A stretch of 64,000 nucleotides of DNA, taken from Apostichopus japonicus (taxonomy: Eukaryota > Echinodermata > Holothuroidea > Aspidochirotida > Stichopodidae). The translations under genes were made by a program, and so were the position numbers. The notes beneath the pieces were generated by a model that was given only the letters and a program-made list of their open reading frames with translations, was not told the origin of the DNA and ran no database searches. Location of the stretch: positions 5,831,001-5,895,000 of the forward strand of contig NC_092570.1 of assembly GCF_037975245.1 (NCBI RefSeq). Reading direction: 5' to 3'. Each line of letters starts with the position of its first letter. Position 1 is the first letter of the stretch. Below, in pieces: positions 36,394-62,600 of this stretch.

Positions 36394-39300
36394 TCAAGGT
36401 ATGTTTGGTCGTACCTTCATCTGGGAGCTCTTGGTATGGAATGGACTGAAGTAGAATTGATCGCTATTCTGACCGTTGAGATTAGAGAAAAAGCAATTAT
36501 TATACCACCAGCCTCCGGTACCGATCACGGCGCAGTTACCATCAGGCCTGTTATCGTTGTCCCGGTCAGAGGTCGAGAATGGCATGTCATTGTGACTAGT
36601 TAAACCATTAACTGTTATGATAAGAGAAAAAAATAAAGGTAGAAAGAAGAAATTTGATAATCAACAATTAAGCTATCTCTACAAAACAAAAATATCAATG
36701 TTGGACAGCAATATCATAAGCTTAATTACATCTGCAATTAAAATAAATAAAATAAATAATATTCAATATAATTTGATTGATTATAACAGATACAGAAACA
36801 TTACCTGGCTGTACTTATGATTTCGTCTCTTTTTCTTCTCCGACTATTACATATCAAGATTAAAATTCTGCTCCAAGTCACCCGTTCCAGATCGTTATTT
36901 ACTTCCCTACAGACTCTCGATAGTCGTAAAAATTGAGTCAAAATTTGCAGTTTTACCGCAATTTTCATATCATTCACCCGGCTGTTTTAAACGAGGAGCC
37001 TCAAATTAAACAATAAGCAGAGGTCATGACCAAAATGGTGGTTATAGTAAATGAAATTGTTACTTGTTTTGTCGTTTTTGGCCACCCTTGTTCCTCTCTC
37101 GCCTTTGAGGGGCTTGCCTGTGTTGTATGTTCTTTTACGTGTTGAGAAAAACTACTAGCATCTACGACAGACGAACAGGCAATCGAGACACAAGATTTTC
37201 AGAGTAAGTCGTGGAATTTTCAGAAATGACACAAATTCAACTTAATAAATTGTCAGCAAAGATATTGAACTCAGTGCAAAGATACTTACATAAGAAAGTT
37301 CCTGATGTGTATTGCCAGTGGATTCGGTAGTTGTCCTGTTCCGCTGAGATCCTGAAGACTCCATAAAGACCGTAAGAACTCATACTAAATGTGTTTGTCA
37401 GTTCGATTCGCATGCTGGTTTCCCTCTGGTTTGTGATGTAATGAACGGCCTCGTTACCCAACCAGTAATCGCCGTTGACGTCGCCAAAGCCGTTCTTGTA
37501 ATCGTCCCAACCGCGGTTGAAGTCCTCACTCAAGTCTTGCCTATTTTGGAAAACCTGGCAAAGGTAAAATATGAGAAAGACGTTGAAATAAAGATATGTA
37601 CACATAGTGTTACCGCAGTGCAATTCAATTTTCAGTTGCATGGTTTTTGGAAAAAAAGGAGATCCTAATTCGAGTCCCAGCAACTTCGTTTTGCCAACGA
37701 CAAAAAACCGCGGCAGGTTGGATCGACGACAAGACGTAACAAGGTTAGATGGTACTATTTTGAATGGTTGGGGGAGCTTGACTACAATAGCAATACCACG
37801 GTTGCAGTATGCTGCTTTGGTGGCAGACATTGTCCCTGATGTTTTAGAAATTTGAACAGACGAAGAAATGTTAATTTTCTGATTGTTATTCTGTGATAAA
37901 ACCTTCCTCTTTGTCATTGGATTCAGTCTAAAATGGAAAAAAAAGGAGACAACAAATTTCCCAACAGTGAAGCTCATATGACGACAAAGATCTTTGTCTT
38001 AATTATTTCATTTTTTCAGGGCAACATGTTTGCAAGTGTTGACACTGACACAATTGTCATCATCAGGTGGATTTCTGTTTTTAGATTTAGCATTTGCGAA
38101 ACCCATCTCCGTTACAGAAAATAAAGGTCGATATAAATTAAAGAAAAACATGAAGAAAAAAATTAAACACACGTGGCTATAGGTGAAGCTATGTTTAGAT
38201 CTGATCAAGCTGTCTCTGATATCTCTCAAGTAGAGCTGATCATAAGAGTCACTGTAGTGATACATAGTGTATACAAGTGTACATACCGTCCAACCACCTC
38301 CATCAGTGGTCATGTCACAGTAGACCTGCAAGGATCCACCAGGGTAGCCTGGAGGGGCGATGGTGTAAACACCGTTGGCCGTCTCGCCGCTAAGCAACAG
38401 TTCATAACAGTCAGCTGGAGCTTGAGCGACCTGCTCGCAAGTTTCACCGTCTCCTTCGAAACCTTCGTTGCAGTGACATCCTTGCACTTCATCCTTCACG
38501 CCACAAAATGCATCTGGTGAGCAGATGTATTCCTCGTCGGTCTGAATGGTTCCATCAATGCATTCGTAGGTCGCTGTGCAGTCATTGTTGACCAGGACTA
38601 TACCTTCCTGATGAGACAAAGAAGAGAATGAAAGGGTTACCAGTCAAAATTGTAAAGACTTTAACTATGAAACAGTATTCCTCAGTGTAGCAGTATGATT
38701 AACTTACGTCTATGATACCATATTTCTCAGTGTAGCAGTATGATTAACATACGTCTGTGATACCGTATTGCTCAGTGTAGCAGTATGATTAACTTACGGG
38801 GAGATGCCGTATTCCTCGGTGTAGCAGTATGATTAACTTACAGCTATGATACCGTATTCCTCAGTGTAGCAGTATGATTAACTTACGTCTATGATACCGT
38901 ATTCCTCAGTGTAGCAGTATGATTAACTTACGTCTATGATACCGTATTTCTCAGTGTAGCAGTATGATGAACTTAGGTCTATGATACCGTATTCCTCAGT
39001 GTAGCAGTATGATTAACTTAAGTCTATGATACCGTATTCCTCAGTGTAGAAGTATGATTAACTTAGGTCTATGATACCGTATTCCTCGGTGTAGCAGTAT
39101 GATTAACTTACGTCTATGATACCATATTTCTCAGTGTAGCAGTATGATTAACTTACATCTGGAATACCGTATTCCTCGGTCTAGCAGTATGATTAACTTA
39201 CGTCTATGATACCGTATTCCTCAGTGTAGCAGTATGATCAACTTACGTCTATTATACCGCATTCCTCAGTGTAGCAGTATGATTAACTTACGTCTATGAT

Positions 39301-41318
39301 ACCGTATTCCTCGGTGTAGCAGTCGCACTCCAATTCTGTGACACACTCTCCGTCCTGTAAGATGGAGCCACCGCTACAAGAACAGGTATCAATGCACCCG
39401 TGGAGACAGTCTTCGCTGCCGTCTAGATCCACACAGCTTGGTGAGCAGGCATTTGCACAGGTTGTATAAGTAGTAGAGCCTGGACATGTCATTTCTAAAA
39501 GCAAAGGAAAGCATCCCTTAAAAATGAAAATTCTGAATTTAATTTCCACTATATTGATATTAAATCCCAATATGGATTGACAGAGGGAAACAAAAATAAA
39601 TGTGTAGGGTCTTCCTTTGTCACCATTATCTCTGTGGCTTATAAAGAGCCTAAAAACTCTGATTATTAAATTGGTATGCTGGTACTCTATCATCAGTAAA
39701 TTTAAATCAAGTAATAGCACAATTGGCAGGTGATCAAGAATTAGCACATGAAAAAATAATCTCACAAACATGCAACCCCCCCACCCCCCTCCCCCTTCCT
39801 CTCACTACCTTGAATGAATTTGTAATTTTATAAACACGACAAAACCTCAAACCGTTACTCACCAGAGTCAGGTATTTCAGTTCTCCAGTTAACGGCTGGT
39901 CCCCCTGCAGCTCGACAAGTCTTGGCATACACGGCGAAGCAATCTACGACGGATGAATTGTCTACACAGAAATCTTGGATGCAGCCCTGGTAGTATGAAG
40001 CAGGATCGACAAAGTCGTGACAATCGGCAAAGATACCTGGAGAAAAAGGCAAAAAGTAATTTATCATTTCAAATTTCAAACTGACGAACGTTGAGAAAAC
40101 ACACGATTACGACACTTACGTTATTTCTGTGTTACGTTTGGTCCTGTACTTGACTTATATTATGATAATGTCACTATTTGGGCTGCATTTACCAAACACA
40201 AGAACCAAAACTCAGATGTACTTGAGCAATTAGATGAAATCATTTCCTTTATGCAACAACAACAAGGAGAAATAATTTCTTTGAGGGTTTTCCATGAATA
40301 TTTCAACATTTCATAGAAACACCAAACTGGTAAAAGTGAAGGGATATTAGGGATAAAGAGGAAGTAACACCTACATGAAGGTAATGAAAGATGTCTATGC
40401 ATGGCTTGTACCTTATGACCAAGTAAGTGTATTACTCAACGTTTGGAGTATGTATATGCATGGCTTGTACATTATGACCATGCTAGTAGTGTATAACTCA
40501 ACATCAAGAGTCTATTACTCCCCATCACGCTTGATGAGGTAGCCCGTATTACATATCTCATAACCAAGCAAGTAGTCTACTACTCACCATTAGTGTTATT
40601 GAGGTAGTGACACCTATATCTCTGGCTTGTACCTCATTACCAAGTTGTCTTCTACTCACCATCATTGTTATAGTGACACCTATATCTGTGGCTTGAACCT
40701 CATTCCCAAGTAGTCTATACTACTCACCATTAGTGTTATTGAGGTAGTGACACCTATATCTCTGGCTTGTACCTCATTACTGATTAGTTATCTCCTACTC
40801 ATCATTCATGTTATTGAGGTAGTGACACCTTATATCTCTGGCTTGTACCTCATTACCAAGTAGTCTTCTACTCACCATCAGTGTTAATTATTGAGGTAGT
40901 GACACCTATATCTCTGGCTTGTACCTCATTACCGATTAGTTATCTCCTACTCATCATTCATGTTATTGAGGTAGTGACACCTTATATCTCTGGCTTGTAC
41001 CTCATTACCAAGTAGTCTTCTACTCACCATCAGTGTTATTGAGGTAGTGACACCTATATCTCTGGCTTGTACCTCATTACTAAGTAGTAATCTTCTACTC
41101 ATCATTCATGTTATTGAGGTAGTGACACCTATATCTCTGGCTTGTACCTCATTTCCAAATAGTCTATACTACTCACCATTAGGGTTGCTGAGGTAGTAAC
41201 ACCTATCTCCAGCTTGTGCCTCATCGCCAGCACACGGATCGGTAGTTTGGGGAATATTGTGACATTTTTGATATGCAACAGTCAGCCAATCAGCACCTAA
41301 GGCAGTTATATCCGTAGT
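36394..41318 (-). CDS. Cassette E: C8, TIL, TILa followed by a C-terminal fibrinogen-related domain (6 exons)
   Basis: Exons: C8 41318-41177 and 40036-39863, TIL 39494-39292, TILa plus start of the fibrinogen-related domain 38607-38287, domain middle 37554-37290, domain end 36611-36394. The fibrinogen-related domain (about 220 residues) begins [18 protein letters not shown], has [35 protein letters not shown], the calcium-site motif DRDNDN and [15 protein letters not shown], and ends MKVRPNIP then stop. All usual landmarks are there, so it should fold. The acceptor at 36611 was chosen over a nearer AG because it has a pyrimidine tract and restores [14 protein letters not shown]. The donors at 41177 and 39292 lie in tandem arrays. 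Confidence 0.9.
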
Positions 41319-44300
41319 CTACAGACAGTGAGAAAATAACTTTGCAATATATACTTCCACGAAAGCAAAATAAATATTTCACACAGACGTACTTCATGTT
41401 CATACATTGCTATCTTTTATAACTTCTTGTATCATATATTTAAGCACCCCTAGTAACACAATCAACCAGTCCAATCTCTCACCTCCTCCCACAGGTGTAC
41501 ATAGACTTGTCCCATAGCAACCATTAGTCATAGTAATATCATAAGGGCCAGAGGTTATCACTTCTTGGACAGTTTATCTTTGTTTCTGTGGTCACTTATA
41601 TCCTGGTATAGTAGCAGAACAAGCTCACTGGGTTTGAGAGAATCATCATCACGTTGTGTTGTCTTAGTCCCATTATCCTTAGAACATTATACTAAGTTGC
41701 TTTCATGACTATTGTTAATTTCTTTTACGGCTGACAAGAAAACGAAAGTCGATATTGCTTTCTCACAAAAACAAGACCGCTGAGATTTAAAAAAAAAAAA
41801 AGACGAATAGCAGCAACCGCTGAGTCTGTTTTAATATCTTGAGAACGTTTTTTTTCCTGTGCAGCAGAAAATGTCTGGACGGTAGAAATCCGATCCTGAA
41901 TTTTTGTAAAAAAATAAAAGGAGGCTTACCACAGCTCCGCTCTGCAAGGCCAAATCATCACCAGCATTAGCATTGCAGGTTCCACACATACCAAATACCT
42001 GTCCTCTCAAATCATCAGTTATTTTAATAGAAGCCATGCCTGATTCAGTAAGAAGAATAGACAGCCCAAAGGAAGTTGTAAAGATCTGTGGAAAGGCAGA
42101 GAGATCTGCATAACATATGGACAGTTTATGAAACGCAAACCACCAATCCCAGTCATCGTTTTCCAACCGCTCATAGAAACATAACAAACCATTCCACCTA
42201 CGATTAATTACCACTGCTCATATTTGTGTCAGAGTTCAGGGTCAGGTCAGGTCAAGCTCAGCTAGAAGCATATGCTATACTAGAGACTACCCTAATTGCT
42301 TCATAATCTGGGAAGAAATAAACCAACCGGCTAGCTACAACATTCTTCAAATGTTCACGTTTTCAGGGTTTTAAAAACTGGCTTCATTGATTAATTCATA
42401 TTTGACCTCACATTTAGATTCACATTGTCAAGTTTTATATTAAGGGTGACTTCAAATTTTACCCAAAATCTTGTTCAACCGAAAGTTAGAAGTGAGTTCT
42501 TACAAGTTTGACTTTGACATCTCATATGTAAACCTGACATCAGAGCATCAGCATATATTGTACAAATAGACTGAGCTGAAATCATTTGAATACCCGCTCG
42601 ACAGGTGTCGATTGTTATTTCTGTGACTCTGTATTGAAGGGTGTGAAGACTCGCGCAAAAAGAGACGTCTCTTGCCTAGTTTCCAATGAGGTGTAACAGA
42701 AGTGTTAGACACCACCATCGATCTCAGAAAATACACACACACACATGCTACCGTCGGTAATTAGACACTAGTGTACAGTCAGTACATACAGCTGCGGTCA
42801 ATACCCACAGCACGTACAGTGTAGAAACGATACAGCGATGGACATCTCAGGTCCAGCTAAAGATAACAAGGTCTCATGTTTCATTACTGTCTGCATTTTG
42901 TAGCGACACGAACAAAACAACACTTGAAAGCAACAGAAAGTTAACTTTTTCAGATGGTCGCATGCAGTTTGGGGCGAGTCTCCAATGCCTTTTAAACTAG
43001 CATCTTACTCTCCCTCTGGCCAATTTTTTTTTTTAAAGTACTGCGTCAAATAGACATTATTTTACACATAAATATTCATTCTGATATATATAAAAGCAGA
43101 TCTACTTACCGAGCTTGCTTCCGGAAGGCGGACTACTGTGACAATGTCATCTGAGAAAGTGGTTCCCATTTCTACAAAACCTATTCTTAGTTGCCTGTCG
43201 AATCCCAGACTGTACGACCTGTCTTCGAATTCTAATCTGAACCCATACAGGTCGGTCGGCAGATTTTGTGCAAAGAGAGCGATCACTTCGAATTGCACCG
43301 GTCCAGTTCTGTCGGCGACCACTATATACTCGCATCCGATGTTGTGTTGGTAGCTGACCAGGTCAAACGTCCGGAAGCGAAGGTTGTTCCAGATCAAGCA
43401 CTCACAATCAGCTATAAAGAAATCAAAGTCAAAGGATGGAATTTAGACAGCATTTTTGTCTTGAAGTCCAGTAGAAAAAAGAAAAAGAAAAACAAATTGA
43501 GTATTGATAGAGTGCTTGTGATCTTTCGGTGGGCTACCTATTCTGGTCTGTCCACAGGCATCTCCCCTTGAAGCAAATGCAATGCAGTGGAATATATGGG
43601 GCAGAGACTGCTTTAACAATGGTGTAGTACATAGATAGCTTACTTTATATACCATACAACATCTGGTATGAGTTGTTATTATATCATCTATCTAACTGAC
43701 CAGAATTGCATGGGTTCAAATGAACAGGAGTTTAAACTGAGCTTTAATTTGCTAGTAAACATTAAGACATACACAAGGGAATTGAGAGATAGGTTACAGC
43801 TTGGGAACAATAAATGTCAATGGGCCCCTTTCTTGAAGTCTTTTAGAAATTCATGGTTTTCAGAATTTTTCTGGTGGGCAAAAGATCTGACCAGATTACA
43901 TCCTTTACTCATGCCTAACTATAAAATGTATTTATTTATAATTGGTATTTTAAATTATGAATATGATCAAACATTATTTTTGATCCCATTGTCCTCCAAG
44001 CCCCCTAAATGACTCTGACCACTGAAGCTGCAGACCCCTGACCTACTCTTGCCAGGTTTGGAAATGGAATAAATCTGATGTGGTACCTACCCAGCTCACA
44101 CTCTTGGCCATTGAAAACGTATCCAAGAGAACAATAGCAGTCTCTGTTTCCAGATTTGACCTCGCAGGAGGCCTGAGCAGAACACTGGTAGGTCTCACAG
44201 TCCAGCTCTCCCAGGATACATGTACACTTTTGTGAACATCCTTCATTGATATAGACAGAGCCAGGCTGAAAGAAGAGACACATGAAAACTGGTACATTCC

Positions 44301-47300
44301 ATTCTTGAGGATGTTACCCAAAAATAATGAGTTGAATACACGTATCACATATGATGAGGTAGAGCATACCTCATATAACCAATACATACCTCTATTACAT
44401 CCTTAGAGTAGTGTGTGCCTCATTTAATCAATGGTTAACTGTACATTATATGAGGTAGTATATACCTCATGTAACCAACAGAGCATTATATATTAGTTAT
44501 GAGGTATGACCTACTGTACTTCATAAACACCACATACTTCTGTTATATCCTTGCAGTAGTATTACATACCTCATTTATTCATAGATTACTTGTTCATTAT
44601 TGAGGTAGTATATACATCATATAACCTACAAACCATTATATATTAGCTATGCGGTATGACACACCTAAATACAGACTTCTATACTATCATCACAGTCAAA
44701 TAAACTTCACTCATAAAATAGTCACTGACTAATTTCACAGTATCTTTGAGGTAACTTATACATCACACTACCAATGTAAACATAACATATTGACAACAAT
44801 GAACATGTGATCTTTATACCGAGATGTAGGTAATCACACTACCAATGTAAACATAACATATTGACAACAATGAACATGTGATCTTTATACCGAGATGTAG
44901 GTAATCACACTACCAATGTAAACATAACATATTGACAACAATGAACATGTGATCTTTATACCAAGATGTAGGTAATCACACTACCAATGTAAACATAACA
45001 TATTGACAACAATGAACAAGTGATCTTTATACCAAGATGTAGGTAATCACACTACCAATGTAAACATAACATATTGACAACAATGAACATGTGATCTTTA
45101 TACCGAGATGTAGGTAATCACACTACCAATGTAAACATAACATATTGACAACAATGAACATGTGATCTTTTTACCGAGATGTAGGTATCCTCTGGAGTGA
45201 TGCATCCGCATTCTCTCGGATAAACACATTTATCTCCATCTAGAATCTTTCCTTCTGGACAGACACACGTCTCTACATTTGGAAGGTCACAGGCGATGGG
45301 ATTATCCCTGCTGGAGCAGGTGGTGGGACAGGCCGGGCCATCCGCTGTGTATATCATGCCCTCGGGACAAGGTCCAGCTGCAATTACATGAGACCAGAGC
45401 CAAGATTTAGGACCCAAATTTATACACAGCTAGACTGGATCAAAACCTAGACGTGGTGGTGCAGATATCACCCAGGTCAGGTTTGGACAGAGATCACATT
45501 TGAAAACACACACAGTGTCGTGAATGATAATCATTTTATATGAACTCCTAATATCAAACATGACTGATGATCTAATGTGACATATGTATTTATGTACTTG
45601 AATAATTTACACATGGCATTAAATGTTTTATTAATAGTAATCGTGTAACAAAACATGTTTAATATGAACCAGACATCTAATTTTTACTACTTTTAAACTT
45701 TACATAATATCTTATTTTGAGGGTCATAATAGTCATGCATAGATGAATTAACTGTTCGCAAATTTTGGCAGTTTTAGCATCCTGAATTCTGGGCAGATGA
45801 CCTTTCAACAGTATAGAATTAGAAAATAACGCAACAGTGTATTCATAGCTGCAGCATTTCTCCTGAACATCAAATATCTGACTGCCCCAAACCTGAGATC
45901 AACTTGTTTTACAAACCATGTGCATATATGCCACAGATAAGTTTAAAACATCTAGAAAATCTGCCTCTAGCAACTTTAGCAAACTAATCTAAACTTTGAC
46001 AGAAATTACACATGACCTCTGTAACCAAGACGACAGCGTAAGACACTGATATTAATGACGTTTCTTCGACTTGAGTTTTCAATTTGAATAGAATCTACAT
46101 TACCGTTTCATGACCAAATTTACCATAATGATATTTCGAAAGCTAGATAAAATGAAGATGCAAATGGACTCACGGCACTCTGCTACTTCTTCCCACCACT
46201 GTCCTGGGTCACCACCGGCATTGCGACAGGCGGTCGTAAATGCTTCTAAGGCAGCACAGAATGAGTCCGTCCCCTCGATGGCACAGGTATCGTAAACACA
46301 GCTGTTGTAATACGAATCAGGGTCCACAAACTCATGACAGCTGGCAAATGGACCTTAAACAACAACAGAGAAAGGAAATTGAGTTGATCTCTGCTTTATA
46401 TTGGAATTAGTAAATTCTGAAGATGAGACTTTTAATTTCTATTATTCCGTTTGGATCGTTGCTTTGGGAAGTTTTAAATTTTAAACTGTATTCTTTTTCT
46501 TTTGTAGGAGGAACTATGATATAAGCCATACTTGAGATAAACCAGGCTTGAGATTGAGTGTGGAAGGGTATATGGTGTGGAAGGGGATAGGGTGTGGGAG
46601 GGGATAGGGTGTGGGAGGGGATAGGGTGTGGGAGGGGATAGGGTGTGGGAGGGGGAGGGGGAGGGGGATAGGGTGTGGGAACAGGAGAGGTCAGACCAAA
46701 TTCTCACTGGTGGTGAAACTGACACCTGTGGGGCCACCATGAAGGGTAAAAATCTTTGCTGCGAAAGATATTGGTGGGGGTGGGCATGGGGGGAAGGATA
46801 TTACTCCCCTGGTCCTGAGGAGCTCTGCTGCTGGAATGGGAAACCCAACAGGAGCTGGCAGGCTAATGTTTAGCAAGTATAGCAAGGCAGTCCCGTGACA
46901 CCACAGTGATAAACTGTACATGTTAAATAATGGTCTTTGACATCTCACAACAAACTGTTCTGGGTGTATACCATTAAATATGACAGATAATATTTTTAAT
47001 AATTGAAGGGCAGTTAAACTCACCATCAGCTTTCAGGATGTAACAAAGATTCTCTGCATCTACTTTGACATCATCTTTGCCATCACAAGGATCTATCCCA
47101 GAGTCTGGAGTACACTGCTTATCACCCACAGTCCAGGCATTACCAAATGCTGAAGCAGATTCCGCCTGTGAAAGATACCACAAGTTTTATTAGACAATGT
47201 AAAACAGTATCTGAACAAAGCGTAAAAGTATGGATGATGGGGCATAGAAAACAATTCACATGACAAAACATTTGAGCTGGAAACAATTCACAGTATTGGA

Positions 47301-50300
47301 ATATTTCATAACATATTGGAACTTGTTTTTGTTTATTCCATAGGTTTTTTCACCTCCCAACTGTAGCTGTTTGGCAAAGAACCCTGCTTTTTTTTTTGTA
47401 ACGTCACAGACTGACACAGAGACATCAGAGAAAGAGAGTGACTAATTTATACCAGGTTGTTTTTGGGTACATATTTATTCACAGGTGGGAAATTCAGAAT
47501 AAGGGAAAATTTCCCTAGACCTGTTCCTTGTCCTTAAATGAATAAATCAAGTCCAACTGCTTACTGAATATCTTCTGGATGCATGAAAAACGAAACTACT
47601 CAATCCAACATATCATGTTAAAGGCATTTGCACACAATGATCACGAGATGAACAGTGGTTGCACATGGGTGAAAACAGACAATCCTTGGGGGTGGGGTGG
47701 TGTATAAGTCATTACCGAGAATTGTTTGACTAATGAGGTTCATCAAGAGGACTTATACTTAAAGGGGTTGACCTATCAAATGCCAATGTCAAAAATTTAA
47801 GGGGTAAACTTACCAGTTGTCCATTGGGAAGGACAAATTCATCGGTTGGGTCCTTATTGCAGGTACCACAGAGACCACAAAGTACCTCGTAGTAGTCAGG
47901 ACTGACCTCCACAGTCAGACCGGCATCAGCATAGGTGAAGGTCATCTTCAGACCAAAGTGAGTGACCACCATCTGCGTTAAGGGTGAAAGTAATCACATT
48001 TACACATTAAAACCTCAAGCCAAGACTGAAACGTTGACTAGTAATGCCCTTAAATATGCTAGAGCACCAAATTATGGTCACTCATATTCAAATTTTGACA
48101 AAGTTAGACTCTCAAAAGCATTTTCCGTCAGTAAGAAATCGTTTTGAAAAGAGCAAAGAGGGATTTTGGCCAGAGCAGCATGCAGTCAAAAATGTGACCT
48201 CAGCATTATAAGTCCTGTAATCCACCCACTGAGCGCCCCAGCTGTTAGTTGGTGGCGATCCCCCCTGTTTCTTCACTCATAATTTGAGATGACATTAATA
48301 ATTAGTGTTGGTTTTAATGAAACACAACAGCCTATTATCTCAGTGTCACAATTTCTTAATATTTACACTGATTAAATTAATATTGGTACTTTAATGAAGT
48401 AATATTTTATATTTATTAAAATTATTATTTCGAATCCATAATATAATCTACATCTTAGTACAAATAATTTTCAAAACACAACTTCTCTAACCCCAAACCC
48501 CCCTCTCCTCACTTGTTCCATGTTCCTCCCCCCCCCCCCTTAAAAAGTTGTAGAAATATGTTTCATTATGTAAAAATAGAAAAGTAATAAATTTTCACTC
48601 ACTATTTTCCCTGGTGGTAGGAGCGTAATGGTTACATGTTCTGTACCTCCTGTCGTATAAGGTAGAGTCTCTGCTACCCCACCCACCTTCATGACACCAG
48701 AGCTGAGTATCTCATAGTCCACGTTATTATACTGCAATATTACTCGTCGCAGGTAAGAGACCGACTGAGATGGTAGGTTCTTGTCGTTACTACCGATGAC
48801 TCTGAAGGTTGGCAGGTCACCATGGTCGCAGGTTTCCACGAGAACGTATTCGCAATCTCCTTGGAAGTCGTAGGTCTTGCCGTCGAAGGTGATGTAATGG
48901 GGATCTCCCCAAACTTGACAAGAACAAGGCTCTACAAACAACAACATAAAGTTTAAAAAAAATGTGTTTGTTATCAAGCATTTAAGCATTCAGCTTGTTT
49001 TATATTTAATTGTAAAAAGCTTTACCAAAAAGAGTTTTTGCATGAAAGTATGCCATTTTATCTTAATTTATTCATTATCTAATCACTCAGTTACTGATGA
49101 ATTGACGAAGGCACCTCTCTGTCCCATTCCATACCCATGTGTCATCTGCTGTTATTCTTATACAAAATTCGACAAACTGTATGATATTCTCTCAAATAGT
49201 TCAAACACATCTGATGGACAGAGATATTGTAGCTTCAAACAGAACTTGCAACTTTACATAAACATTCGTATTGAGTTTTATCTGCAGATTCAGTTAGATC
49301 CAGGTTATATTTATTGTAAACGCATTGAATAGCCATCACTAGGGGAAGTTGCGTGCCTTCAATTGATCCAGTACTACAAAGTGATGAAGATGTTCCATTT
49401 CATATATTTTTCTTCTTTTTTAGCATGTGCAACACCTCCTGACTAAAATAAAAATCCAATATTTTCAAGTGTTCGCATCTAATTTATAGCGACAGTTTTA
49501 AAAGAGAAGAAAACAAACAGTCAACAATTACCATCGGAGCACTCTTGTCCGTTGAACTTCAACCCTTCCTTGCAGAAACATCCTCTCTCTGCGCCAACGA
49601 CCTTACATTCTTCGGTACCACGGCAACCGTAAGCTTCGCATTTTTCTTCCCCGTCCACACAGGTGCAGCGAAGAGAGCAATCGTCGTATGTGTACACATC
49701 ACCTTGCTGCAACGAAAGGGTCGTTAATTTACAAATCGTGATATGGCAAAGGAAATCGACAAGTGGCTCTCTTACTACTGAAGGATGTAACTGTTGGTAT
49801 TGTTCATCAGCAGGTTGCTACTCAAGGCCAGAGTGGTTAGTGCTTAGTATGATGTCATCACTCCTTAAGCTCAGTTCATCTGATAACAAATTTAGGTCAT
49901 TTCCATGCAGCAATGCCATTTTCTTTGCACAATCCTTGGAAAGTAGTTCACCACTGTGACAGTGGCTTCTCATTGGCAGATTTTCATATCATTAAAATGC
50001 ATAATTTGCATAGGAAGTTATTTTTGACATATAACTGAGCAAGCTATATTGTTTTCATTTATTCATCGAGCATGCTGTCATTTGCTACCTGGCTACTGGT
50101 AGACATTTGGCCAGAATGTACACAGAGAACAGAAAGACAGATATGACATGCTAATGTGTACAGTCCCAGCAGCATGGTCCCTGGATGAGTTGTGGTGACC
50201 AACAACAGGTGAAAAGAAAAGCAACATATAGCTATAAATAGCAATAACCAGAGTGCATAAGAGCAATACCCATGGAAATGACATCAATCAAACAGAAAAC

Positions 50301-53300
50301 ACAATTCCAACATTTTTGCAGTCATCTATGCTCAAATTGTCCAGGAATGTAAGAGTAATTTGAAAATTTCATTTCAGTTGTCAGATTCTCGATGAAAGTT
50401 AACTTTAAATGAACTTTTAACTCACAGATATGTAGACACCATTCTGTAATTTGCAGCCACAGTTATAATCAAAGACACATTTTTCACCATCCAGGACTTG
50501 TCCTTCTGGACACTGGCAGGTCTCGATGCAAGTCTCTGCGCACTCTTCGGGACCATCCGGGTTTTGGCAAGACGGTGGACAGGCAGTGCCACAATCTGTG
50601 TACTCCAGACCCGCTGGGCAGGGAGCAGCTGAAAACATGACAAATAAATATGACAAACAATTCTTCAAAAAAAAATCTTGAAAAAGGGGAACATGATTGC
50701 TGTAGAATATGAGATGTGCATCCCTTATGGGGAGCTGGTCCCCCTACCGGGGATAACATGGGTGGGATCAGCAAGGCCCTATGGGAGCAGCTGGATGTTA
50801 ACAGATGGATGACACATAGTTTGTTTTTGACACATAGTTTGTTTTTAAATCCTGATCATGGTTAACAAGAATTCTGTGGAAGTGAGATGTGCATCCCTTG
50901 TAGGGATCTGACCCCCTACCCTGGCTAACATGGGAGGGATCAGGGGGGTCTAAATATGGCCTGTGGTAATGTACAGGGGTAAGATTCAGTGTGGGATAAT
51001 GAATTGCGGACCTCAGGATATTCTGAGGTGTTTGCGATAAGAGACAACATGAATACAACTGAAAATGTACAAATGTATAGAAGGACTAAATGCATTCCTC
51101 CTCACAACCTCCAATAAAGCTATTTAAAAAAAAACTATACCCCAGCAGGACTGGAATAGTACTCACCACACTCAGGGACGTAGGTCCACCATGATCCAGG
51201 GCTACCCCCTCGGTTCCGACACAAGGTGACGTAAGCTTCGATATTTTTACAAATGTGCTCCGTCTCTAAGTTTGTCAAGCAGACATCGTAGACACAGTCA
51301 TCAAACAATTCTTGAGGATCTAAGAAATCCCTGCAGCCAGCTAGGGGACCTGGGTGACCAAGATCAGATACACACAAAATGTTAGAAACAATTCTGTAGA
51401 ATATAATGCAAACTTGTGTGAAAGCTGCTGTTCTATATACCAGTCAACGAATCCTTAAAACTCAATTGTGCAAATAACTTAGATTTTGAAATTTGGCACA
51501 AATCACGGCCATAATCAACTTTCATAATGCCCAGCTAGCAGGGAGTTCCATAGTTACAAGGAATCCCACACACAGGATGATGTGGAGTCCATAATCAACA
51601 GCTTCAAAGGGCATGGAGAGTTATATGTCTGAAAAAAATCATTATTAATTATGACTTACCAAACTGATCTACCATAACCCAACACTTATCAATCGCTGTG
51701 GCCCTATTAGGATCGCCCTCAGGACAAGGATCAACAGGTTCAGGTGGCTGACACTCTCTGTCACCAGTCACCCAGGAATTACCAAACTGTGCAACGTTTC
51801 GTGCCTAGGAATGAGAAATGTATAGTAAATACAGGAACTTGGTCTCCGCACAGCATACGACAAGATACTTAACCCTCATTGGCTGATCAATCAACATTCT
51901 AACTCCCATTGATGGATCAGCTTTATTCTGAATCAGCAGGAAGAGAAATGACGAAGACTAAAATGGAACGTTTCTTTGGTCACTATGAAAACTTCATCGG
52001 GAATTAAAACTGAGGGAAACACAAGTGCTTGGGCGGGGAAAAACAAGGTTTTTTTTTTATATCCTAAAATGGTCATATTGCTATCATGCGAGACTCCAAA
52101 ATGGGCTATTTTAAGAATTTCCAAGAAAAACTATAGCGGTATGCTTACTATAATAATAATAATTATCAAAGAATTACAAGGCAGGCATGTTATTATTGCA
52201 CAAATTCCTACTCTCAGAAACCACCACTGATATTTCCATCCCATGGACGAGAGTATTTGTAGTTCAGCATCTGACCACTTTTTCAAGTAACGAGGGAGGT
52301 GAAGGTACCCCATCCAAGAGAAATTGTTTCAAAGCCCCATTTTGCCACTTTGCAAACCAGAAAATACCAAATCCACTGATATGACTCTACTCAACAACAT
52401 TGCACAGCAGCAATTTGAATACATCGAGAGAATATGGTTCCTGGTGAAGCTTTGAACAGGAGACCTAGTGGTTGTGAGGCATATTCTATAACTGCTGTGT
52501 CACGCTATCACCCTAAGCTAAGCAACCATTGGGTTTATAATTGGCCAATCACTTAAAGACATTGTTATTCGTCAGTAGGAGAGGTCGCCCTACTAGTAAG
52601 AATCACCTCTATGACTGGTCAAGCCTGCATATAAAAAAACAATCCTCCTCAAATTTACTCGAGCATTAATAATTTGTTACTTGATACACTGCATACACCA
52701 CCCTAAGTACTGACATTAGGATTCATCCTTGAGCCACCTAATTAATTGACCAGCCACCGTATGATTGTAAACATAAGTGCTCTATTAAATGTTCAGCACT
52801 ACTTTCCTGTGTGTGAAGACAAGTTTGGCTTGACCACTGACATAGTACACTGTGTGTTTAATCATGAATTTGTGCAGAGGAGCGTTCAGTATAGCTAGAA
52901 TTACCAACTTGCGCCCGTAGATACTCAATCTCCCCAGTTTTTGGCCAAAAACAGGGGACTCTGGTGGTATTTGCTATACGCAGGGAAGATCGTAATTTCA
53001 GAATGCATTGAAGTACAATAGTGTACTTTTGAACCTTTTCTATATAAACATGTCCAGAGCATCAGAATGATAGCAACAGAAGCTTTAGCTCCACATGACA
53101 GCCACGTCACACTTTGTCTCAAGTCCCTGCAGTCTGTTTGGAAGTACACTAAAGGTCGATGGGTAGCATCCAGAAATGTTATTATATGCTCACCTTTAGA
53201 ATGAACTCGATCTTAATTTTAACTTACCTTTTGACCATTACGCATCGTCAGATCGTCTCTCCTGTTTCCATTAGCCGAACCAAACAGTCCACAGACTCTC

Positions 53301-53492
53301 TCTGTAAATTCTGGTGGAAGCCTGACTACAATATTAGCATATTGGGTACGTTGCCAAACGCTAAACTCGCTGTTAATGACCAGGCCAAAGTCGGACGTTA
53401 TTAACTGAAGAAAGGAAAGAAATAGTCATTTGTAGGTTTATTGTCTGTAAACATAGTAAATAACATGTATATATATATATCTCTATCTCCAC

Positions 53493-53539
<47 letters not shown>

Positions 53540-53658
53540 AATGAAAATCGTAATGAGTTGGAAAATCAAGAACAGTGAAAAAACTTTCAGCCTCCACTGG
53601 GATTCGAACCACGGGCCTTCCGCTTACATATAACGGATTACATATGTTTGTAGAACTG

Positions 53659-53690
<32 letters not shown>

Positions 53691-56600
53691 TATTAGAGAA
53701 AACCAGAGAAATAAGATATGACTCATAATTGACAAATAAGGAGTAAAGTTTAAGAACATATATTGGAATTTTCGGTCCCCTTGGGACCTTCGTCAGCAAT
53801 ACTTGGCAGTCGAATGAAAAGTACAAAATGTAACACAATGAAAGTATGACGCTAGATAAGTGTAAATTGCATTGATGGAATAGGAACAAATAAACCATGA
53901 CTATACAGGAAGCGGATTAAGGAGCAAAGAACGGATTACATATGTTTGTAGAACTGATAGTTGTTAAGTGGTCCTTTGGTGATAGTTGTTAATGGAATCC
54001 TGCAAAATAATTTTGCAGGATTCCCAGTTTCCAAAATATTTTCAATCTTCATAGTCATTCTCTCAAAAACCTAAAATGTATATTAATTGCCTCGTACTTC
54101 AAATACGCAACTGAACGTAAGTAAACGTTAAGAAATCGATTGGATATTTCGTATTAAGTCTCACATCACCGGCCTTGACGCTTATGCATGGTCAGAGTGA
54201 CAGACCTGTTTGAGTTGTGCAAGGCACGGCTCCTGCAGGTAACTGACGCTTATCTGCTCCCCACAAAGATTTATAAACCAGGCAACATTGCAGAGTTGAT
54301 TTGCTACACGGTCCTCTTCTTCCCAGCTGTTTACTCTCCTTTTCCTTTCCTGTAATTCCTCTGCTGTTTAATATCGGATCAAAATCAAAAGGCTGCGGCC
54401 CTGCCATAGAACCTTCTCTGTTTTCTTTCGTTTTGGTTCTAACGAAATAGCTGTTTACTGAATCTACTTTAGTACCTTCAGTGCCTTCTTTATTCCTTTT
54501 AAGTTAACACATTTTCTTTCCCGATCTACTATAAAAGTGTATGGAGAACACAACAGACAGAGAGGAAAACTGCCAACAAATCTATTGACCAAAGAGAACA
54601 AAGCTTTGGTCTTTAACCAGCTGCAGTCTGTGATTGACTTGAGCTTGACTTACCCACTTATTGCGTGGAACATACGTCATAGTAACACCATCTCTTGAGA
54701 AGGGCAGTGTGACCGCCGCACCATCTACGAAACATCCACGCGCACCCTTGACTTCAAAGACGATTCCTCTGTAATGTAGTCTATAAGAGGCAGTCACGGT
54801 GACCTTGAATGAAGGTCTTGGCTTGTTGAAGTTACCGATCAGTTCAAAGTAAGGAAGGGCTTCTCCCGTGCCACAGGTTTCTACCAGCGTATATTCACAG
54901 GATCCTTGGTAATCAAACTTCAATGAATCGAAGGAGAGGAAATGAGGATCGCCGCTGAGACTGGCAGAGATGTCACCTGTAAGAAAAAGGGAGAGAAACC
55001 ACTGAAGATTTATAAACAATTATGAAAAGGATGAATAATTATAGTTAGAACCGTGAATATATAGTTCTGGATAATATCATTCTTAAAGCTAGATCTCTGT
55101 CAAAAAACAAAACAAAACGGATTGTTCTCTGAATACTTACTACCAGTACAAGTCTGTCCATCACCACTGTAACCATGGCGACAATAGCAATTTCTCATTC
55201 CATCTTTGAGTTCACAGTTTGCGTTCTCGTCACAGGAGTACGGATCGCACTCCAAGCCTGTAGTACTACAATGACAGATCTCGTCACAGTTATCCGATAT
55301 GTATCTGTCCCCATCCTGCGAGGTTAAATTATAACATCAAAATGGTTTGACAGTTTATTTGAGAACTCAACTACCTAATTCTTCTCCTCACCCTCCTCCC
55401 CTCTCCATTCCTTCTTACCCCATCCCCCACCCCACAACACACCCCTTAAAATGATAAGAATTTATAATCTCATTACTGAGTGATGCAATTCAAGATCTGC
55501 TGTATAGACCCCAACTATAGCACACTATCATGGGAAAGTTTCTTAAGATTACGTAATCCACCTGCCTTGGTCGTAAAATGACCTCTTTTTACCAATTATT
55601 CTGCAATGCCTTCTGCATATTTTTGTCTTGTATGAGGGTCTTTGTGTGAATGCTGTACGATTAACTACACTGTAGACATGAACATATTTCCACGCAGTGT
55701 TTACACAAAGAGCGAAATGGTGATAAGAAGCTATGCAGGCTAATTGTAGAGCCTGCGGTCGATTTTCGACCGTGGCAGTTCGATAATTTTATCACAAAAC
55801 TTTCTTAGCTATAAGGGTGCTATGATTGGAGACAATAAAGCAGATCTTTAAAATGGAAGAAGTTTAAATTTCAATGATGCCTATTTTGTTTTCTTTTTTT
55901 CACAGCTCATATAGGATACAGGTCATTCCAGACTTGTACAGTTTGCAAAGAATAAAGAAGATATCAAAATTTCTTGACACATTTCATTCTTTTACTGCGA
56001 ATATGTCCAAAAAAAACCCACTTCATTATGACAGATCGTCTACGCAATAAACTGTTTGGAGTGACAAGGAGCTGTCGACATCTTGCCAACTCTGTGACTG
56101 GGCTGTAATTGAATAATCGCTATGTCATTTTGAGAATTCTCAGTATGTTTTTTTCTGTAAATTTCTGGAATCCTGTGAGCAAAAACAGCTACCATATGCA
56201 AAATTTTCTACTTTTTTAAACTTAAATCTTTAAAATATCTCATTTGCATATTTTACCTCCATTAAATAGTTGCTAGGGGATACGCATCCACAATCGCCGG
56301 GGTCGATGCACTCATCGTTATGGAGAATGTTAGGAAACTGGCAGAGACAGGTCTCTATGATGGTGTTTGGCTGACAGTTTTGCTGTCCCGTGGGATCGTT
56401 GCACGTTGGTTGACATCCCTCACCGAATGGAATCAATATCGAACCATCTGGACAAGCTTTGAGTGCTACCAAAAAAACAAAACAAAAGTTGGCAGGGTTA
56501 CTCTTACGAGTGGATTTTTTTTGTTTTACTTTAGGCTGAAAACCCACTGAAACCCGCTGAAAACCCGCTGAAAAACCCTTCTGCAAAACCCACGGCAAGT

Positions 56601-59600
56601 CATTTCAAAGGTAGATTGATATGACAGGAATATCGCAGCCCAGTTTAATAGTTGCCTCGACTCACAGATGATATTTTTGCTTTGCACGCTGCTGTACCTT
56701 CGAAACCATACTTTTATTTAAGAAACTACATCCTGCGAAGTTAGAGAGTATATTGCAATCGCAAGAATAAAGTTATCATGAATCTGTGTTGAACATAACC
56801 AGTTAAAATTAGTAGCTATATGTAAAGCCAAGCTAGTGGCATCTCATTATGAAATATAATAATTATTATTAATTATTATTATTATTGTAATAATTATATA
56901 AATATAACAAAATCACTTCAATAGCTAGCTGCCTTATGGACCGTGTCAGAGAGAAAATCTACAGTAGCTGCAAGTGGACTTGCAGCAAGTCTGAATCAAT
57001 GTCAAATAACAGACACAGTTACTACCTATGCAAACCAATAGTGCCTATTGTTTAAAGGTATTGAAGACTCGCGCACAAAGAAACGTCTCATGCCGGTAAT
57101 CTGACCTAGTTTCGAATGAGGTGTAACAGATGTGTTAGACACCACCATCGATCCCAGAAAATACACATACAGCTTCCTACCGTCGGTAATTAGACACTAG
57201 TGTACAGTCAGTACATGCAGCTACAGTCAATACCCACAACACAGTGTACATAGCAGCGTGGACATCTCAGGTCTAGATAAAAGATAACAAGGTATCACGT
57301 TTCATTACTGTGTGCATTTTGTAGCGACACGAAAAAAAAATCACTTGCAAGCAACGCAAAGTTAACTTTTTTCAGATGGCTGCACGCGGTTTAGGGCGAG
57401 TCTTCAATGCCTTTAAAGAAATGCAGAGCGCAGAGCGATCACATTCCGACGCAGCATGGATGCAATGAGGCTGCAGCTGCCTCAGCATTTTGACTTTTGA
57501 CAGAGTGCCTCGAGGTCTTTTTACGTTCATACTGATGGATGTGATTCTGGGTGAGGAGAGGGTACCTGCTGGTTCCTGGCAGTGAGGGGCCTGGGCCACC
57601 CAATCTCCGGGCACTCCACCAGCCTGTCTACATTGTTGGGCGAAGAGTTTCATAGCTGAGCAGGACATGGCGGGCTGTTGTGACATGCAGACATCCTGCA
57701 CACAGGCATCATACATGTCTTGTGGAGTTTTGAAATCACTACAGGGTGAAAACGGTCCTGGGGAAAAAAAAATGAAACACATACATAGAAAGATAAAAGA
57801 AAACATTTTGGTCAAACTTTATTTATTTTGTATGTCTTACAGTTTGCAATAAACATTAGGTCTTTGGTGGTAACTACCAAACATAGTAAAAAAATAATTA
57901 AAAAAATGTAAAAAGAAGTAGAAAGAATATTTTAAACAAATTCTACTCTTTCTTCATTAAAAAAAGCAAGTATTGAATAATTATACATCTGCATCCCATA
58001 ATTTTTTTTTTTTATGCAATAATTTTTGGCTACCTTGCTGCTCACTTTTCACCAATTGTTCTGTCTTGCTGAAATTTATTCATGTTGTTAATTATCCAAC
58101 TATTAACACATCTGGCCAAATCTGTCTAATTATAACCTCGTTGTCTCCATCTTAATTTTAGCCTGCCTCTCATGAGAGATCCTACTAGGATGGAGAAACA
58201 TGACGGCTTTTCGATGATATCATGTTCATTCATAAATAAACGACACATAGTAAAAGTTGCTATCTCTTCTAAACTGCTATAAGAATGTGGTTCTAAAAAA
58301 AAAATGGTCACACTCTTTTTACTTTTTATAAAATTAGTATATTTTGATATAAAACCTGACAAGAATGATGAACAAACCTTTATCAAAAATTTCAAATTTC
58401 ACAACTGTTTTTTTAAGTTTTTTATGTGCAATGACGTGGAAAGGATGATCATTTCAGTAGGTGTTTTGTCTTCAAAAGGAGCCAGAAAAATTGAGCTTAT
58501 TCATCAGAGCATCATGGTGTCTATCAAAGATTTAATGCTTTACCTGGAACGGCTAACAGAAGACTGCAGAGGTCTTTGCCCTGCGTTTCTCCATCAGAGC
58601 CTGGTTTGCAGGGATTGTCTGTCACGTCCTCTGTTCCGCATGTCTCGTCATTTCTCCAGGCAGCTCCGAATGCTTCCACGGAATCGGCCTGAATCGCAAA
58701 CAACAGTAATTTATTACTGCAAGTGTAACACTCCCAGTGTCCAGCAACTATATCACACACATCACAGGTGAGAATATCCCTATAAAAATACTACATGTTG
58801 TTTAATCATGTATACTTTGTAAGTCATATGTATATTATATCCACCCCCTTATTCCCCCTTATGTCTCTGTACATGTACCACACATACCATACCATACATA
58901 TAATACTTACAAGTTGTCCATTAGGTAATGTTAGTTCATCAGACTGTGTCTCTGTACATATACCACACATAACATACATATAATACTTACAAGTTCTCCA
59001 TTAGGTAATGTTAGTTCATCAGACTGTGTCTCTGTACATGTACCACACATACCATACCATACATATAATACTTACAAGTTGTCCATTAGGTAATGTTAGT
59101 TCATCAGACTGTGTCTCTGTACATGTAACACACATACCATACCATACATATAATACTTACAAGTTGTCCATTAGGTAATGTTAGTTCATCAGACTGTGTC
59201 TCTGTACATGTAACACACATACCATACCATACATATAATACTTACAAGTTGTCCATTAGGTAATGTTAGTTCATCAGACTGTGTCTCTGTACATGTACCA
59301 CACATACCATACCATACATATAATACTTACAAGTTGTCCATTAGGTAATGTTAGTTCATCAGACTGTGTCTCTGTACATGTAACACACATACCATACCAT
59401 ACATATAATACTTACAAGTTGTCCATTAGGTAATGTTAGTTCATCAGACTGTGTCTCTGTACATGTACCACACATACCACATGTTTGGCCAGCATGTTGG
59501 GCGTGTACATGGATCTCGGCCTTTTGTAAGTTGTCAAACATCACAAACAGTCCAAATTTGGCAGCGATTGTCTAAAGACAAACAAGAGATTGAGTATGTG

Positions 59601-62600
59601 AGATATGAAAGTTTGTTAAAAACATGTTATTACGTATAAATTCAGTTTTGATTTTCTGACTCCAATATCCCTCCTTGCATGCCAATAAAACACGACCACT
59701 AAGTCAGAATTTGATCGTGAAAAGACGAAGAGATAACGACAAGGAAGGGGTTAATCTTTGACGATGAAATTATAAATTTTTTGATAGAGAGGTCAGCTTA
59801 AAATTTTCAGTAGGTACTAGTCCTCACTCGCAAACCGATCTTTCCTTATCCGCCGCTCCTAATCGTGGCTCAATCTTGAGACATAATCACATCTATGAAA
59901 GCAAAAATTTTCATCGTAGGAGTCAAAGAAAACTCACTGTAAATCCAAAGACTTGATTTCCAACGGTGATCCCCTTCTCCTCGTCTACGTAGGGCAAAAA
60001 CACTCTCCGTCCGTTCACTTTGACTTTGCCTCCGAGGAATATCTCGTACGAGACGCCGTCCAGCTCCAGCCTCAGGTAACGGAGATACGAGACCTCGTCT
60101 CGGGGAGCGTTCTTGCTGAGTTGACCGAACAGCTTAAAGTCCGGTAATTCTTCTGAATCTCCGCACTTCTGAGCCAGGATGTATTCGCATTCTCCGTGGA
60201 AGTCATAGGCCAACTTGTCAAAAGTTGTGAAGTGAGGGTTGCCAAACACGCTACACACGCAAGGACCTTTGTAAGTGATATAAACCAAAGACACTTACTA
60301 CCATATTACTATAGATGCATGGCAAGGGTTACATCTCGCATATGGAGCACATCTGGTTAGTTCTATGATGTAAGTATGGCGTCATGTTCACAATGATATA
60401 AAACACCGAAAAACTGTTTAAACCTTGAAAATCTTTAAATATGAAAGACAAACATTGCGAGCTCCGCTTTAAGACTTTTCAGTTAAGATAAAAGGAAGAA
60501 AAAAGGTTACCAAGTCACAGTCTGTTACCCACCTACATCTACCTCTTTTAAATATACAACCTTTCACCATTACAGGTAATGTTCACCTGCATTTAACCTA
60601 CACCTACTTCTTTCACATGTACCATCTTCCACCATTCACATGTACTTTTCACCTGCATTTAACCTACACCTACTTCTTTCACATATGTACCAACCTTCAC
60701 CATGTAAAGGTTGATGCTCACCTGCATTTAACCTACACCTACCTCTTTCACATGTACCATCTTTCATGACATATTGGTCAGGGCAGTAGCAGTTCCTGAT
60801 TCCGTTCTTCACATCACATGTGGCTTTACTAGGACAGGTATTTGCTGAGCAATCTAATCCTGTCTCCGTACAACGACAGACCTCGCTGCAGTCCTCATTC
60901 ATGACCTCTTCACCTTGCTGTCAACAGAAGCAAAGACTTATCTTATAAAAAGAGAAATAAAGATGCTCTCATTTCCCAATCAACTTTGTGTTCACATCTT
61001 TTCATTATTTCAGAGCGTGCAGAGTAAGATTGATCATTCATTTAGTCAGTGTACAGTTTTGATGTCAGTGATTGTGTGTTGCAATTTAAACGTCAAGGTC
61101 TTCAAATGAATCTCAATATTTCAAAATTTTGACTCAAAACTACCTGGAGGAGGATGGGGGGGGGAGGTGTGGGGGGGGGGTACAGTCTTATGGGGGTACC
61201 AGTCAGAGGCATGAAGTTTGACATAACTACCTGGAGGAGGATGGTGGGAGGAGGGGGTTGGGAGGGAGGGGGTACAGTCCTAGGGGGTACCAGTCAGAGG
61301 TATGAAGTTTGACATAGCTACCTGAATATAACCTCCAGTTGGTATTTTACAACCACATTCTGCTTCCGGTACACATCTATCTACATCTAGCATCAGACCC
61401 TCGGGACAAACGCAGACGTCCTCACAGAGGAACTTACACTCATCAGCTAACTGCCCCGCACACGTAGATTGACAGGCTGATCCGCAAGGATCGTACACCA
61501 TATCGACGGGGCAAGGCGGTTCTGGAACAAGCAGGAGTAATTCAAACAGAAATTAAACCATTAGCAATCCGCCACAGAGGACAAACAATACATAATTAAG
61601 ACAACAGAGTTCTGTAATAAACAGTGCTCGGAGAGAACATGTTGGTTCTGAAACAGAATCATGACTTATATGACAAGTTGGTTCTAACACAGAAGCACAA
61701 GTACTGTAGTTAGTGCAAAGGGTGAAGCTCAAGGATTTACAACAGTGCTAAGAGAACACGGTGGTTCTGAAACATGAGTAAGTTAATAGGCTGATTCACA
61801 AGGATCAAACACTATTCAATACAAAGACAAGTTGGTTCCAAAGCAGATGCACTGCTAAGTTCATCGAGTGATCCTCAAGGATCCTAAAAAGTGTGTTAAG
61901 AGAAGATGATGGTTCTGAAACATGAGTCAGTTGATAGACTGATTCACAAGGATCAAACACTATTTTAATACAAGACAAGTTGATTCTAAAGCATATGCAT
62001 GTGTAGCTAAGTTCATCAGGTGATCCTCAAAGATCTATATACCATTCATCATTCTGGATCAGGAGGACAAGGTTAGCTGCACAGCATTTCTATGTTATAC
62101 AAAATCAAAGAATCAGGGTCCATAAAATCTTGAGATAAGTACATTTCTTTAAAACATTATGTCGGACGGTAGCTGATGTATGTACTGTACAACCACAAGG
62201 ATGAAAATCCAGACAGGAATAAGAAGGGGGGGGGGGAGGAAAACCAGAAATATTTGCCCGCATATTTACCAACAAAGCAGGAAATAATTTAAAGTTTGTG
62301 GTTTTGAAAGCTCTGAATTAAAAAAAAAAACTCCTGTGTAAGAAACGCTGTGTAAAAACTGCAAAAAACTGTGTAAAAACTATGTAATAAAATCCTGTGT
62401 AAGAAAACTGCTATACATCATATTACACTAAGTTAATACATATAGCTATGTTGGACTACTTTGCGTAGCACTTCGAATTGCGTTATTCCGGAAATTATTC
62501 ACCGTAAGTTGATATATTTTTTATATTAATATTTCAGCTGCGTCAATTTAATTCTTCACATTTTAAGGGTTTTGTCATTTTATTGTCATTGTAAAGCGCT

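Follow-up and report, generated by a model that had tools for sequence, protein, structure and literature searches.

Tandem arrays at splice junctions of a VWD/fibrinogen-domain gene and its paralogues, of a kind known from lancelet mirages

Introduction

Why should one splice junction after another of a single gene form the edge of a tandem repeat? The question is raised by a minus-strand gene in a stretch of 64,000 nucleotides (the window; C10:5831001-5895000) of a 671.6-Mb genome of 35 contigs, represented by a single assembly. The gene carries exons for VWD, C8, TIL and TILa in repeated form, one for an EGF-like domain, and fibrinogen_C at its end (assigned by Pfam and exon mapping), and a first-pass annotation of the window had placed six of its donors and one acceptor within minisatellites. 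Minisatellite-like tandem duplications of exon-intron boundaries, called mirages, are described for the globin, Adh3, PGBD5 and troponin C genes of lancelets (PMC3087553, PMC3902484). The arrays considered here are very probably of this kind, the product of short tandem duplications that recurred across splice sites and are tolerated as long as the site contiguous with the exon stays in use.

Results

Arrays at the donors and acceptors of the window gene

The exon model was predicted from homology and splice consensus; the gene runs on past the window end, and the span given in Table 1 is that of the exons mapped within the window. Five paralogues were compared: the window gene (A) and four further genes on the same contig (B, C, D and E). 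Arrays were called with Tandem Repeats Finder (TRF) and by direct reading of the minus strand. At all six donors named by the first-pass annotation the tandem unit spans the exon-intron boundary, the TRF ends lying 3-64 bases inside the exon (Table 1); the donor at 61322 is the weakest case, as inclusion of the exon edge is marginal there. A seventh donor array of gene A (42 bp x10) was found at another linker donor upstream of the window (68834-69253 in the window frame). The acceptor before 61521, which had been listed with the donors, is a weaker case than it had been taken for: only degenerate copies were found, and the TRF array at 61745-62035 (148 bp x1.9) has no contact with the exon at 61521. 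The diverged acceptor copies upstream of this exon are nevertheless discernible from noise (score 21 versus a shuffled mean of 9.5 and a maximum of 17; 0/300 shuffles in gene A), and the same holds for the paralogues (0/300 in B, C and D; 1/300 in E). When the consensus units of the gene's 9 arrays were compared with each other, no cross-match was obtained (blastn, E 0.01), which agrees with the earlier view that the units are unrelated between arrays and that the duplications across splice junctions occurred independently.

Table 1. Host gene, junction arrays and near-donor arrays
Feature	Position	Strand	Unit and copies	Junction and exon part	Basis
Host gene: VWD/C8/TIL/TILa/linker exons, then EGF-like and fibrinogen_C	37294..63766	(-)			Pfam on ten pieces, exon mapping
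Donor array	38665..39323	(-)	45 bp x14.7	donor after 39292 (fifth TIL exon in window); last ~32 exon bases in edge unit	TRF, reading
Donor array	40557..41224	(-)	~9 copies, units 68-79 bp (TRF 76 bp x9.1)	donor after 41177 (linker exon); ~48 exon bases in edge unit	TRF, reading
Donor array	44762..45187	(-)	71 bp x6.0 (98% matches)	donor after 45175 (TIL exon); ~13 exon bases	TRF, reading
Donor array	58862..59479	(-)	85 bp x7.3	donor after 59416 (second exon of VWD domain); ~64 exon bases in edge unit	TRF, reading
Donor array	60531..60766	(-)	66 bp x3.6	donor after 60743 (TILa exon); ~24 exon bases	TRF, reading
Donor array	61138..61324	(-)	91 bp x2.1	donor after 61322 (TIL exon); just 3 exon bases	TRF, reading
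Degenerate acceptor copies	61522..62035	(-)		acceptor and first ~60 bases of TIL exon starting at 61521	TRF, shuffle test
Near-donor array, paralogue B	L015:1188-2461		63-65 bp
Near-donor array, paralogue C	L017:9180-9375		63-65 bp
Near-donor array, paralogue D	L020:8051-8181		63-65 bp
Near-donor array, paralogue E	L023:8910-9105		63-65 bp
Myosin array	L027		53 bp x17.4	donor
Myosin array	L037		47 bp x25.4	donor, second exon
Myosin array	L039		131 bp x4.6	donor; exon recognised by eye at array edge
Myosin array	L032		124 bp x3.0 (98%)	acceptor and ~69 exon bases

Overlap of arrays with donors exceeds the chance expectation

Nine arrays with a period of at least 25 and a score of at least 100 were counted in gene A, one of them upstream of the window. 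When unit-length segments were placed randomly over the 42-exon span in 20000 trials, 0.71 donor-spanning arrays were expected (likewise 0.71 acceptor-spanning arrays), a value that exons missed by tblastn would lift slightly. Seven of the nine arrays span a donor, and this number was reached in 0/20000 placements. Within the gene, the overlap of arrays with donors is thus beyond what chance placement predicts.

Permutation of whole arrays gave p = 0.004 for gene A (7/9 arrays at a donor edge), p 0.0045 for B (four donor arrays and one acceptor array of 12), p 0.04 for C (five and one of 12), p 0.19 for D (three and one of 8) and p 0.03 for E (four and one of 7). This test is weaker than that with unit-length segments, which addresses the birth of an array, because long arrays easily touch junctions; moreover, many of the arrays are shared by descent, so that the five genes do not provide independent p values.

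Array turnover among the paralogues

Four of the donor arrays (at 39292, 41177, 59416 and 60743) are common to all five paralogues, with differing copy numbers. At the last TIL donor (39292), the five genes have 14.7, 7.0, 3.9, 2.0 and 2.0 copies, so that a change in copy number, which had been anticipated between orthologues or individuals, is seen between paralogues. The TRF edge of the array at 60743 falls short of the exon in D. The array at 61322 was reported by TRF in A only, with a partial second copy recognised by eye in B. In B-E, the TILa acceptor is the end point of a 33-bp array whose units consist of polypyrimidine tract and AG; TRF reported no such array in A. Together with the donors of gene A and the acceptor array of a myosin locus (L032), this means that both types of boundary have been duplicated.

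The 71-bp array at 45175 is present in A only, and B-E have the same junction and intron start in unduplicated form, which makes the five genes effectively a before/after pair of the duplication. The intron at this position predates the array because B-E keep it without one; the array itself, absent from four paralogues, is hence young. Its new joint seems, as judged by eye, to have formed with 2-3 bases of microhomology and one extra base. Over 8.2 kb, starting inside the 85-bp array, paralogues C and E share 99.7% identity; in C, this donor array is split by ~1.9 kb of other sequence (L017:6610-8508) that its close relative E does not have. The linker arrays of C and E differ both in sequence and in the state of their decoy donors, i.e., those in the inner units, of which 2/15 carry GT in C versus 13/13 in E. 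The series of paralogues thus appears to record array birth and turnover. Another array, with the 63-65-bp units listed in Table 1, starts ~30-50 bases downstream of a linker exon in four of the five paralogues and excludes its donor; such near-donor arrays may be mirages with a decayed edge unit.

Decoy donors carry no sequence sign of use or selection

The splice signal survives in many of the copies, though not in every one: across 24 arrays, 131 of the 163 decoys retain GT. When the decoys were chosen more strictly (138, of which 110 with GT), identity to the first unit was 0.84 for the donor G and 0.94 for the T versus 0.89 for other positions, i.e., the donor letters are preserved no better than their neighbours. 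A stop in frame with the exon precedes the second donor copy in 22 of the 24 arrays, the exceptions being the TILa arrays of A and B. That the arrays might compensate for weak donors was considered and rejected, as the scores of the array donors (6.9, 6.4, 5.1, 3.3, 3.2, 2.1 and -0.6) all lie between the extremes of the gene's remaining 35 best donors (-1.3 to 8.5; hand-entered scoring matrix). Since the donor letters are no better kept, stops are so common and donor strength is ordinary, there is no sequence sign of use or of selection, and the decoy donors look neutral.

Junction arrays in other genes

The pattern had been taken as special to one locus. As a control, the best 20 of 70 matches of a myosin search were analysed, in which 31 exons were found by tblastn and three more by eye. 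These loci, on other contigs, contain 14 arrays under the same thresholds, among them the four of Table 1, three at donors (L027, L037, L039) and one at an acceptor (L032); three junction arrays, or four when L039 is counted, compare with ~1 expected (P 0.078 and 0.0145, respectively). The process is, therefore, not confined to the host gene. A local excess of donor arrays there is possible: 7/42 donors bear arrays versus 2/31 at tblastn-found myosin exons (Fisher p = 0.29), or versus 2/43 when the 12 exons of another VWD gene are added (p = 0.089). This other VWD gene, on C15, lies in a region (15.82-15.94 Mb) with at least ~25 matches to the first VWD-domain part on one strand, perhaps a single giant gene, of which 10 kb were inspected (L046).

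Neighbouring genes

For the two neighbouring genes, coding pieces of FSP1/AIFM2-like and RabGAP-TBC type were confirmed. A 51-bp array (x13.7) with a TG-rich unit lies at 25764-26464, ~1 kb from the RabGAP-TBC coding piece (24138-24626). Rfam and tRNA scans across the window gave no matches.

Discussion

How such arrays could arise and be kept

In the most plausible scenario, tandem duplication would affect a segment of ~33-150 bp that lies at a splice site or straddles it, and the new copies would land on the intron side because the spliceosome goes on using the site that adjoins the full exon. The duplication would be tolerated for the same reason, namely that this site would still be used. 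The array would then grow, shrink and homogenise via unequal exchange or slippage, with selection preserving the exon-edge unit alone and the decoy splice sites of the inner units drifting neutrally. Existing introns would thereby be lengthened, an effect that had been proposed for this locus and that the arrays support, and the one intron that allows a test (45175) was not created by its array. As the reason why donors are over-represented, we prefer that an array anchored at an exon would never be wholly lost, since selection holds on to its first unit, from which the array can grow again.

Several observations weigh against recurrent duplication across splice sites. The enrichment at the myosin loci is moderate: with the two donors at tblastn-found exons P = 0.10, and only with the by-eye exon at an array edge included (three donors) P = 0.014. 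Ten of the 14 myosin-locus arrays lie away from recognised junctions (unseen exons were sought at some of the edges). In B, C and D, too, roughly one array in two is not at a recognised junction. In the 10 kb inspected of the VWD gene on C15, with its 12 exons, no array with a period of at least 25 was present. A genome-wide search for pairs of the motif CAGGTAAGT (periods 31-60) revealed no clear donor excess, with 99 matches at 29 places versus 76 matches at 15 places for the reversed-motif control, and ~15 of the 29 places were judged by reading to be copies of two dispersed repeats. Finally, that the exon-contiguous donor is the one used is an inference. The motif search also led to two long arrays with units of ~45 and 54 bp that hold CAGGTAAGT (C9:2047527-2049917 and C2:28048938-28050349, respectively); these are candidate donor arrays.

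Alternative explanations

One alternative is coincidence, i.e., that minisatellites are dense, lie anywhere in introns and in part cover junctions by chance. In its favour, arrays are frequent, many in the paralogues and myosin loci are off recognised junctions, the motif test lacks a clear excess, and paralogue D alone is non-significant. Coincidence is nevertheless improbable, given that random placement never produced the number of donor-spanning arrays found in gene A and that the myosin loci, too, have three to four junction arrays where about one is expected. Selection for function, with decoys or alternative exon ends (both named earlier as possible effects) tuning splicing or the protein sequence, would fit the many decoys retaining GT, the persistence of four arrays at corresponding donors throughout the five paralogues, and the TILa arrays of A and B, in which the second donor copy is reached before any stop. 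However, the decoy GT is no better kept than adjacent positions, C and E are wholly different at the same donor, the other 22 of the 24 arrays place a stop ahead of the second donor, and the strength of the array donors is within the range of the others; judged by sequence, functional donor decoys or alternative exon ends thus look unlikely, and we consider this explanation quite improbable.

Intron gain, the third alternative and one raised by the first-pass annotation, would require that introns arose recurrently here through tandem duplication of AG/GT proto-splice sites. The units do hold an exon edge and GT, and the route has been proposed in the literature (PMC3087553, PMC2891723). It is, however, contradicted at 45175, where four paralogues have the intron without the array, and the exon layout recurs free of arrays in the VWD gene on another contig. 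Since both findings make the introns look older than the arrays, intron gain is highly improbable at this locus. Recurrent tandem duplication at the edges of existing introns, with the exon-contiguous site kept in use, therefore remains the explanation of choice.

Implications

Apart from the origin of these arrays, it is conceivable, with some doubt on our side, that, across the whole genome of this probable echinoderm, a few per cent of the donors seed exon-anchored arrays that keep re-expanding, the selected first unit preventing full loss. If so, the 5' ends of introns would be hypermutable, nature would have set up an experiment on the choice of 5' splice sites in which as many as ~25 near-identical donors follow one another, and mirages would represent an old deuterostome trait or a convergence instead of a lancelet peculiarity. 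In any case, the arrays offer a natural test of how the spliceosome chooses among many near-identical donors and are a source of intron-length variation; for gene prediction they are a warning, as inner copies resemble extra exon ends.

Comparison with known systems

An echinoderm host is suggested by a genome profile search, in which the bindin family matched with E 5.2e-29 (profile positions 105-166 of 238). Sea urchins and sea stars are the animals known to have bindin, and GFP genes are numerous in lancelets. A comparison of the myosins with solved structures gave no assignment to a phylum. A GFP-family profile search of the genome gave no match, which is weak evidence because GFP, and the searches that matched here, likewise gave no match in 14 control genomes. 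Given the bindin match and the lack of a GFP match, mirages seem to occur outside cephalochordates. The mirage paper on Adh is reportedly that of Canestro from 2002.

A literature search on mirages themselves yielded the lancelet globin paper alone. No such structure outside lancelets was recognised in the literature as covered by titles and abstract starts and by passages of PMC12783039, PMC3488318, PMC3045353 and PMC2891723, a scope that leaves subscription papers mostly outside. Intron gain by tandem duplication, for which PMC3087553 refers to Rogers 1989, Venkatesh 1999, Zhuo 2007 and Gao and Lynch 2009, shares with the present arrays that the duplicated segment includes a splice motif; unlike there, an existing intron is extended here, and no new intron position was found. 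The first-pass annotation had presumed the pattern to be undescribed, but lancelet mirages have the same structure (PMC3087553, PMC3902484): units of tens to ~160 bp that span the 5' or 3' splice boundary, AG/GT in many but not all copies, variable copy number, and the authentic boundary at the end of the array. Haplotype and somatic length variation, as well as splicing that RT-PCR found to be undisturbed, are results from lancelets in those texts, whereas the present data are one assembly and sequence alone. Mirages have been reported there from cephalochordates, whereas the host here points to an echinoderm. The observation is thus largely confirmed and of a known kind, yet apparently new for the phylum: a structure from a handful of lancelet genes is now found in an apparently different phylum and in unrelated genes, with seven donor arrays in one gene and five comparable paralogues as features of its own.

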